NCBI GenBank assembly: GCA_018660265.1 | Contig: JABJKS010000002.1 | Location: forward strand, 1-37,375 | From: Rhodospirillaceae bacterium | GTDB taxonomy: Bacteria; Pseudomonadota; Alphaproteobacteria; GCA-2731375 | Length of the DNA: 37,375 nucleotides | Reading direction: 5' to 3' | Part shown: positions 5,479 to 36,323 of the stretch, one piece after another | How positions within the stretch are numbered: the first letter of the stretch is position 1 | Layout of the letters: each line of letters begins with the position of its first letter | Program-made: the position numbers and the translations under genes | Notes under the pieces: generated by a model | Databases searched by the model: none | What the model was told of the DNA's origin: nothing | What the model saw: the letters and a program-made list of their open reading frames with translations, nothing else

Positions 5479-5555
<77 letters not shown>

Positions 5556-10174: not shown

Positions 10175-10446
10175 CAATCTGTCGTCGGACCTGAGAGAGT
10201 TCGTCCCGCCCCATGCGGCTTTGCAGCCGCACATCTGGCGAAACTTAGCCCCTTCGGTGAGGTGCGCTTTAAAGACCCGGCCCGTGTGGCCCCGATCCAT
10301 AGGTGATCGCACCTGCTTTCCAGAGTGACATCCCCCCGCGGTCCATGGGCCTGAGAGTTTGCGGGGTGCTTGCTCCTTCGGCGCCGACCACCAAATTCAC
10401 CCATGCTATCTTGGTGAAATTTTCTGGCCGATCTCTCCCGCGGGGA
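10175..10446 (-). promoter_or_regulatory. Tandem glycine riboswitch (two aptamers)
   Basis: Two glycine aptamers can be read on the minus strand upstream of gcvT. The first (about 10446 to 10318) has GCGGGAGAG, then GCGCCGAAGGAGCAAG, then CAAACTCTCAGGC and GGATGTCACTCTGG. The second (about 10315 to 10175) has CACCGAAGGGGCTAAG, then ACTCTCTCAGGTCCG ending in ACGACAG. The CCGAAGG-GC and CTCTCAGG boxes are the hallmark conserved parts of this class. Tandem glycine aptamers in front of gcvT usually switch the glycine cleavage operon on when glycine is abundant. Exact ends are approximate. Confidence 0.93.
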
Positions 10447-10501
10447 TCATCTGTCTGGCCACCTGGATTAGCATCACAAACCAACATCAGGTGGTGGCGG
10501 A

Positions 10502-35219: not shown

Positions 35220-35445
35220 CTACAATCATCCGATACTAGGAACAAAAATAGAACATATAGGGGATATATGTTCCCGGCCAGCGTAAGATACCTTGCACTG
35301 CAATATATCCATCCCTACATATTGGTTGCGCGATGCCGTTCCGGGTCGCGTGCAGACGCCTGTGGGGTTGCGCCATAACTTTGATTTGACCCTGGGGTTT
35401 GCCCGAACTGATACAAATTGGTGTTGGGCCTATTGTCATAGGACC

Positions 35446-35475
35446 GCCATGCCCGCTCATTCAGGAGGAGGTGGC
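35446..35475 (+). promoter_or_regulatory. Hairpin burying the hsp20 ribosome binding site (candidate ROSE-like RNA thermometer)
   Basis: GCCA (35446-35449) pairs with TGGC (35472-35475), and CCCGCTC (35452-35458) faces GAGGAGG (35465-35471) with a G-G and a C-A mismatch. This encloses a six-base loop and hides the whole AGGAGGAGG Shine-Dalgarno region just before the ATG at 35479. A further weak stem-loop precedes it (GCCC/GGGC around 35401-35430). A mismatched, Shine-Dalgarno-masking hairpin in front of a small heat-shock gene is the signature of ROSE-type thermometers in alphaproteobacteria. Confidence 0.6.
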
Positions 35476-35478
35476 ACC

Positions 35479-35973
35479 ATGAATAGATTATCCGCTTTTA
35501 GCAGCCCATTGCTTTTGGGCTTTGATCATTTTGAACAATTACTGGACCGGGTGGCGAAATCCGCCAACGACGGTTATCCCCCCTATAATATTGAGCGTGT
35601 CGCGACCAATGGCCAATCGAACGGCCTGCGCATCACCCTGGCAGTGGCCGGATTTGCCCGCGATGACTTGCAAATCTCGGCGGAAGACAACCAGTTGATC
35701 ATCCGCGGCCGGCAGGCTGAGGAGGCGGAACGGGTCTACGTGCATCGCGGCATCGCGGCACGGCAGTTTCAGCGCAGTTTTGTCCTGGCCGAAGGGATCG
35801 AAATTTCCGGTGCCTCGCTAGACAACGGCTTACTGCACATTGATCTGATACGGCCTCAGCCGGAAGTGGTGACGCGCAACATCGAAATCGCTGCCGGACC
35901 ACCCAATGGCGGTCCCAGTGCCAATGGCAAGCTGTCAGTTTCCACCACCCCAAACAAAGCGCAGGAGGGATAA
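35479..35973 (+). CDS. Hsp20 / small heat-shock protein
   Basis: A 164-residue small heat-shock protein of the IbpA type that holds unfolded proteins for refolding. The N-terminus SPLLLGFDHFEQLLDRVAKSANDGYPPYNIERV is typical of class A alphaproteobacterial Hsp20. The alpha-crystallin domain follows: LRITLAVAGFARDDLQISAEDNQLIIRGRQ, VYVHRGIAARQFQRSFVLAEGIEISGASLDNGLLHIDL, with the C-terminal extension after it. The ATG at 35479 is fixed by the strong AGGAGGAGG site, which is sequestered in a hairpin. The DUF1150 gene follows after 4 bp, so the two form an operon. Confidence 0.95.
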   Translation: MNRLSAFSSPLLLGFDHFEQLLDRVAKSANDGYPPYNIERVATNGQSNGLRITLAVAGFARDDLQISAEDNQLIIRGRQAEEAERVYVHRGIAARQFQRSFVLAEGIEISGASLDNGLLHIDLIRPQPEVVTRNIEIAAGPPNGGPSANGKLSVSTTPNKAQEG

Positions 35974-35977
35974 ACAA

Positions 35978-36211
35978 ATGGAAACCCCCAAGAACGATAT
36001 TCGCGAAGAAGGCCTGCGCAGTCTGTCCAGTGAAGGTCTGGCCATTCTGGGCACGGATCAGGTGGCCTATATCCGGCCCCACGATGTCAACGGACAGACG
36101 GTCTTTGTGGTGCATGGGGCCAACGGCAAGGAACTGGCCGGTTTCGACAACCGCAACAGCGCCCTGGCGGCCTGTTACGAGCACGAACTGGAAGCCGTCA
36201 GCCTGCACTAA
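35978..36211 (+). CDS. DUF1150 family protein
   Basis: A 77-residue protein of the alphaproteobacterial DUF1150 family, usually encoded directly after an Hsp20 gene as here. Features are LSSEGLAILGTDQVAYIRPHDVNGQTVFVVHGANGKELAGFDNRNSALAACYEHELEAVSLH. The function is unknown, but linkage to the small heat-shock protein suggests a role in the stress response. It starts 4 bp after the hsp20 stop, with GGAGGGA upstream of the ATG. The gene is followed by a long inverted repeat. Confidence 0.9.
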   Translation: METPKNDIREEGLRSLSSEGLAILGTDQVAYIRPHDVNGQTVFVVHGANGKELAGFDNRNSALAACYEHELEAVSLH

Positions 36212-36241: not shown

Positions 36242-36323
36242 CCACCCGCTCCCCCTGCCCGACCACCCATTAATGGTACCCTGTGGGTGCCAAGTACGCC
36301 CTGGGGGCAGGGGGAGCGGGTGG
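36242..36323. terminator. 19-bp perfect inverted repeat between convergent genes
   Basis: CCACCCGCTCCCCCTGCCC (36242-36260) is repeated in reverse complement at 36305-36323, with a 44-bp loop that itself contains CACCC/GGGTG. It lies between the convergent DUF1150 and MmgE/PrpD genes and likely acts as a two-way terminator, although no T-run follows on either strand. A small mobile palindrome is the alternative. Confidence 0.55.

Follow-up and report, generated by a model that had tools for sequence, protein, structure and literature searches.

A probable ROSE-derived RNA thermometer with a variant CCGCU box in the leader of an alphaproteobacterial hsp20 gene

The presence of ROSE elements in front of alphaproteobacterial small heat-shock genes is established in the passages of the literature on which we draw (PMC4166951, PMC2873474, PMC5756330), which include a ROSE element assigned by RF00435 to Hsp20 of Gluconobacter oxydans (PMC5756330) and one preceding a small heat-shock gene of M. 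loti (PMC3989490). In these passages a U(U/C)GCU box and a bulged G characterise ROSE, whereas the box of ROSE-G is CUGCU and has a G facing another G (PMC3669281, PMC11342760, PMC4166951, PMC12857270), and the ROSE leader is defined by two to four hairpins with the SD sequence in the last (PMC3669281, PMC4166951). According to a passage of PMC11342760, heat induction was hardly affected when only a U next to the bulged G was changed to C, and was abolished when the bulged G was lost as well; as we read that passage, the mutated U is the second base of the box, whereas the change in the genus described here is in the first. The list of Waldminghaus et al. 2005, which according to a passage of PMC4166951 contains over 40 ROSE-type elements located upstream of small heat-shock genes, may already include a leader of the present kind. 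A search of the open-access literature returned no paper with both 'CCGCU' and 'RNA thermometer', and DUF1150 was not found among the matches listed there for ROSE, RNA thermometer and DUF1150.

We analysed a window of 37,375 nucleotides (the whole stretch of DNA under study) from a Rhodospirillaceae bacterium. On its forward strand, which carries all features of the leader described below, hsp20 (35479-35973) encodes a small heat-shock protein of 164 aa (Pfam PF00011, 63.8 bits), the kind of downstream gene expected of a ROSE element, and the next gene on the same strand (35978-36211) encodes a DUF1150 protein of 77 aa (Pfam PF06620, 45.4 bits). A genome search gave three HSP20 matches and one DUF1150 match, and across the orthologous loci used a DUF1150 match was present in 67 of 87. 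A preliminary description of this DNA had drawn a candidate thermometer at 35395-35480. A hairpin does lie there in front of hsp20-DUF1150, but the element extends further upstream, where it includes an RpoH-like promoter and as many as three additional hairpins.

Just 3' of hsp20-DUF1150 we observed an 82-nt palindromic sequence (36242-36323) with perfect 19-nt arms and 44 nt between them. Searched against the genome at E <= 0.001, it gave nine match rows that fall at seven places. Four copies other than itself span most or all of its length at 78-90% identity, and these multiple matches identify it as a dispersed repeat.

The RpoH-like promoter pattern, CTTGCA-N16-CCTACAT, occupies 35292-35320, 159-187 nt upstream of the start codon, and suggests a putative transcription start near 35327. 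It resembles the S. meliloti RpoH1 (CTTGAA-N15-16-CCTATAT) and RpoH2 (CTTGCC-N15-16-CCTATCT) promoters given in the passage of PMC4843759 that we used. In all nine distinct leaders of the genus, CTTGCR is followed by C(C/T)TACAT starting 22 nt further on; a looser form of the pattern occurred in 50 of 87 leaders, at a false place in at least one of them (L009). Because of this upstream promoter, transcription from within the SD hairpin, which the preliminary description had named as a finding that would count against its reading, appears unlikely. A promoter scan, limited to sigma-70 sites, found none. A sigma-70-like TTGACC...GATACA noticed by eye upstream of the third hairpin was set aside, as it was not seen in three other leaders (L013, L008 and L010), and a transcript from it would still include the last two hairpins.

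The whole conserved leader spans 35321-35481 and can form up to four hairpins, A to D, with the SD sequence in the last, an arrangement that falls within the ROSE definition of two to four hairpins, although hairpin C depends on the stretch folded. Hairpin A (35329-35350) is of the GAUGCC/GGGUC type with a bulged G, and hairpin B (35352-35402) has arms at 35352-35360 and 35394-35402. Hairpin C (35426-35445), a further stem that most genus leaders have, is the least certain of the four. Hairpin D (35446-35475) sequesters the SD (35463-35471) by means of the anti-SD box CCGCU (35453-35457). A YGCC/GGG module that leaves a G unpaired also recurs in the consensus structures of hairpins A and B (35329-35402) and of their counterparts in relatives; it resembles the YGCU/AGG core of hairpin D.

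The sequence of hairpin D, GCCAUGCCCGCUCAUUCAGGAGGAGGUGGC, forms an outer stem in which GCCA (35446-35449) pairs with UGGC (35472-35475), a bulged UG (35450-35451), and an inner part consisting of CC/GG pairs, C.A and G.G mismatches and CUC/GAG pairs below the loop AUUCAG (35459-35464). Sequence, mismatches, two-base bulge and six-base loop are thus as first drawn. The accompanying claim that the whole SD is paired holds for seven of its nine bases (35465-35471), but A35463 and G35464 lie unpaired in the loop. The box G is unpaired as well, within a 2x2 loop and not as the single bulge of a ROSE box-SD helix, and no four consecutive U face the SD as they would in a fourU element. Three registers of the hairpin were predicted to differ by no more than 0.5 kcal/mol at 25, 37 and 42 C. 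In two of them (registers A and A2) G35455 is opposite G35468; in the slipped, near-isoenergetic register, which is the MFE fold at or below 25 C, the box G is opposite an A. The canonical single-bulge register lay 3.4-3.5 kcal/mol above the best at all three temperatures. Neither a 37-nt segment (-11.8 kcal/mol at 37 C, z -0.44, matched or exceeded in stability by 60 of 200 shuffles) nor an 81-nt segment (-19.8, z 0.77, 154 of 200 shuffles) was more stable than chance. Fold energy by itself is therefore uninformative, and the case is comparative.

For this comparison 97 loci were collected from the genome itself, its family and GTDB representatives (the best 80 of 564 confirmed). Leaving out L002, L012, L022, six duplicates and the paralogue L003 gave 87 distinct leaders, in which the boxes before the SD were UCGCU (65), UUGCU (5, among them L006), CCGCU (10), CUGCU (3), GCGCU (1) or none (3). 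The textbook U(U/C)GCU box therefore precedes the SD in 70 of the 87 orthologous hsp20 leaders. The window, with CCGCU, has neither this box nor the CUGCU of ROSE-G, and its CCGCU is shared by the eight other distinct leaders of its genus and by L023 from outside it. The departure from the textbook box that the preliminary description had pointed out is accordingly a property of all nine distinct genus leaders examined. YGCU followed by an SD within the last 45 nt was found in 84 of 87 leaders, compared with a mean of 9.8 (sd 2.8, maximum 19) in 100 rounds of dinucleotide shuffling and with 14 of 67 control DUF1150 starts at the same loci. A pattern derived from the genus leaders, with up to two mismatches allowed, had a single occurrence in each of 9 of the 11 genomes of the genus and none when read backwards; the two genomes without it were G007, where the DUF1150 match was not found, and G008, at whose locus L012 no usable hsp20 start was found.

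In the MFE folds of these leaders the box G formed a single bulge in 66 of 87 cases. A 2x2 loop of CG over GA was predicted in 11 of 87, namely the window, seven more genus leaders, L023, L028 and L035, the last two having a textbook box and yet this loop. Within the genus, eight of nine leaders thus fold with the C.A/G.G loop, and the ninth, L014, folds in the slipped register. Separately, the hsp20 leaders L033 and L057 carry the ROSE-G box sequence CUGCU with the SD GAAGGG; their box G was paired in a short MFE fold, and their structure may differ from that of ROSE-G.

The leader as a whole is kin to those of its orthologues. A covariance model, R1, built from 11 leaders outside the genus, four of them from the same family, scored 39.3 bits (E 2.3e-7) at 35321-35481, and no other place in the window exceeded 8.7 bits. 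Genome-wide, the same place scored 29 bits (E 0.0071) and the next 18.2 bits. All 15 base pairs of R1 lie in hairpins A and B. RNAalifold did not predict hairpin D from this alignment, and it entered the model by sequence only, because the SD columns look misaligned and were left unpaired. Among 53 other loci, R1 matched 20 at E <= 0.01, and these 20 include the eight further distinct leaders of the genus (38.8-49.3 bits); the remaining loci were weak or unmatched, and the paralogous leaders L002 and L003 went unmatched at E <= 1.

These two paralogues merit a separate description. L003 (G000:C37) is the genome's second hsp20. Its leader, in which UUGCU precedes AGGAGG and the stems resemble GCC/GGGUCC, is more textbook ROSE-like than that of the window; it bears the single RF00435 match in the genome, which is not significant (18.2 bits, E 7.1). 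The leader of the third hsp20, L002 (G000:C105), shows by eye a GAGCATGTTC/GAACATGCTC stem before AATGCAGGAG; a ROSE box was not seen in it by eye, and a CTCC at the stem end could pair with GGAG instead, giving a possible alternative fold.

A search with ROSE covariance models had been proposed in the preliminary description. Rfam ROSE_3 (RF02523) matched 35327-35380 at 21.6 bits, below its cut-off of 43, with E 0.017 over the 231 bases searched and E 0.094 at this place genome-wide; genome-wide ROSE_3 matches (E <= 10), which all 14 control genomes also gave, were used solely for this place. RF00435 gave no match in the window, and a scan from 35380 onwards, without the first hairpin, gave no ROSE match where the longer stretch had given ROSE_3. 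At gathering cut-offs, Rfam identified in the whole window only a tRNA (5482-5555, reverse strand, 68.8 bits) and a glycine riboswitch (10329-10450, reverse strand, RF00504, 67.4 bits). The gathering score is a weak test of ROSE membership, as relatives with the known box miss it too: of the 20 relatives that we scanned, which include 14 with the textbook box, none reached it, and only L082 gave a ROSE match (32.5 bits, sub-threshold), the others having none at E <= 1. The Rfam cut-offs miss these 20 relatives and the window leader alike.

Structural support was assessed on an alignment of 13 family leaders and 33 pairs. With the structure drawn on the window, a choice that favours this structure, 90.9% of cells were paired compared with 36-48% when the structure was slid; the figure was 79.6% for hairpin C and 95.7% for hairpin D. 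Seven pairs had changed on both sides, as against 2.4 by shuffling, and further pair types showed no excess (16 compared with 16.1 in shuffles). Compensatory changes, the other comparison proposed at the outset, were plentiful in hairpin A (5 of 9 pairs), but none of the nine pairs of the SD hairpin had changed on both sides. Hairpin B had one such pair of eight (A-U in five and G-C in four of the nine lettered rows, with four rows gapped) and hairpin C one of seven; at hairpin C, L009 differs and the leaders of other genera, L005, L006, L007 and L011, are mostly gapped. Hairpin A is thus well supported, by covariation and by the ROSE_3 match, B and C weakly, and for D the evidence is its conservation and the box. 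At 37 C the MFE fold of 35327-35481 contains 9/9, 8/8, 5/7 and 8/9 pairs of hairpins A to D, respectively; extending the fold by 19 nt into the coding sequence leaves 0/7 pairs of hairpin C and 6/8 of B, with the AUG mostly paired. Because hairpin C and the pairing of the AUG change with the length of sequence folded, our confidence in a thermometer is slightly lower.

In ViennaRNA computations on hairpins C and D with the first codons, mean SD unpairing was 0.40 at 25 C and 0.43 at 42 C, and that of the AUG 0.15 and 0.36. Opening the six-base SD core was predicted to cost 6.2 kcal/mol at 25 C and 5.1 kcal/mol at 42 C in the window, medians of 5.45 and 4.1 in 78 leaders outside the genus, and 4.4 and 2.8 kcal/mol in E. 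coli ibpA, a larger drop than that of the window. With 28 of the 78 leaders at or above its cost at 42 C, the window lies inside the range of its orthologues. At 25 C the median cost was 5.6 kcal/mol for hsp20 and 3.0 kcal/mol for DUF1150 starts (Mann-Whitney p 4.7e-7, nominal since the sequences are related), and 9 of 67 control DUF1150 starts reached the cost of the window. In these folding models the SD is sequestered and no thermal switch appears.

That predicted SD opening barely changes with temperature would suit an account in which heat acts on transcription alone. The leader would then be the conserved 5' end of an RpoH transcript, its hairpins serving to protect the mRNA or to reduce basal translation, and hairpin D would be so stable that a physiological heat shock leaves it closed. 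The RpoH-like promoter and the CC/GG pairs that persist outside the mismatch loop point the same way. Against such an account, 84 of 87 leaders keep an SD-facing YGCU, the opening cost of the window is not exceptional among orthologues, and validated Pseudomonas ROSE elements join sigma-32 transcription to translational control, according to a passage of PMC3669281. We consider purely transcriptional control distinctly improbable. The same conservation bears on whether hairpin D might be a chance fold around a GC-rich SD, of no functional role. Its energy does not exceed that of shuffles and its pairs do not covary, as a chance fold would have it; but it is conserved in 9 of 11 genus genomes, its box is conserved across orthologues, and a model built outside the genus finds this very leader, which makes chance a very remote explanation.

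Nor is the hairpin likely to be coding sequence. An ATG at 35449, after a weak AGGA site (35440-35443), is in frame with the ATG at 35479, and the frame between is open in the window, so that Hsp20 of the genus might start there. Yet L014, from the same genus, has a stop in that frame (ATG CCC GCT TGA), the spacing in L005, L006, L007 and L011 from other genera is not a multiple of three (counted by eye), and the strong SD serves the downstream start. We rejected this N-terminal extension, which is scarcely credible.

Taken together, our results make it very probable that this leader acts in cis as an RNA thermometer and that it derives from the ROSE elements found before small heat-shock genes. 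Box conservation, the R1 match and the identity of the gene support the ROSE-related thermometer of the preliminary description as the best reading, on which the leader works like ROSE and is derived from it, with a variant core. That description had also entertained a variant class; we see a variant of the known ROSE class and not a class of its own, nor a strict member, because the ROSE box and the single bulge are absent and the scores lie below the Rfam cut-offs. In the mechanism we propose, the RpoH heat-shock sigma factor would produce an mRNA with a leader of ~150 nt, whose upstream hairpins would fold stably and set up hairpin D. At normal temperature hairpin D would pair the SD with the CCCGCUC strand. 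Its predicted core is a C.A and G.G internal loop, or else the slipped G.A register; most relatives carry a single bulged G at that point. Heat shock would melt this weak core first, the 30S subunit would then bind, and Hsp20 would be made, probably with the DUF1150 protein.

A more far-reaching reading, which we regard as doubtful, is that this genus has a distinct thermosensor core, which arose from that of ROSE. One U-to-C change would have converted the bulged-G core to a C.A/G.G 2x2 loop able to slip along the AGGAGGAGG repeat from one near-isoenergetic register to another. Such a core might open at a different temperature, or respond to pH via C.A+ pairing. L023, which lies outside the genus and has CCGCU and the same predicted loop, hints at a possible parallel origin of such a core. 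If true, this reading would link ROSE-like to ROSE-G cores. The leader itself, as a ROSE-derived thermometer, would be a case in which a validated RNA thermometer class has changed its sensing core with gene, promoter type and remaining leader kept, and the set of orthologues allows the effect of one base to be tested.

Finally, we compared the leader, as a ROSE-derived thermometer, with the known systems. With fourU elements it would share an SD hairpin opened by heat, its own function being inferred, but opposite its SD there are not four U in a row. Like ROSE-G, as presented in a passage of PMC12857270, it has C as the first box base, C-G pairs flanking the core and, in two of its three best registers, a box G opposed by a G of the SD region; unlike ROSE-G, it has CCGCU where ROSE-G has CUGCU, and so an extra C.A mismatch, it precedes a small heat-shock gene and not an ABC transporter, and it sits among orthologous leaders with UCGCU or UUGCU. 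In its gene, architecture and relatives it agrees with ROSE-like elements (B. japonicum ROSE1, E. coli and Pseudomonas ibpA; RF00435, RF02523). From these the window leader differs in its CCGCU box, in scores below the Rfam cut-offs and in a predicted 2x2 C.A/G.G loop or slipped G.A register in place of one bulged G; with them it shares the small heat-shock gene, the multi-hairpin leader, the SD in the last hairpin and an unpaired G in the anti-SD box, and the first hairpin of Rfam ROSE_3 resembles its hairpin A.
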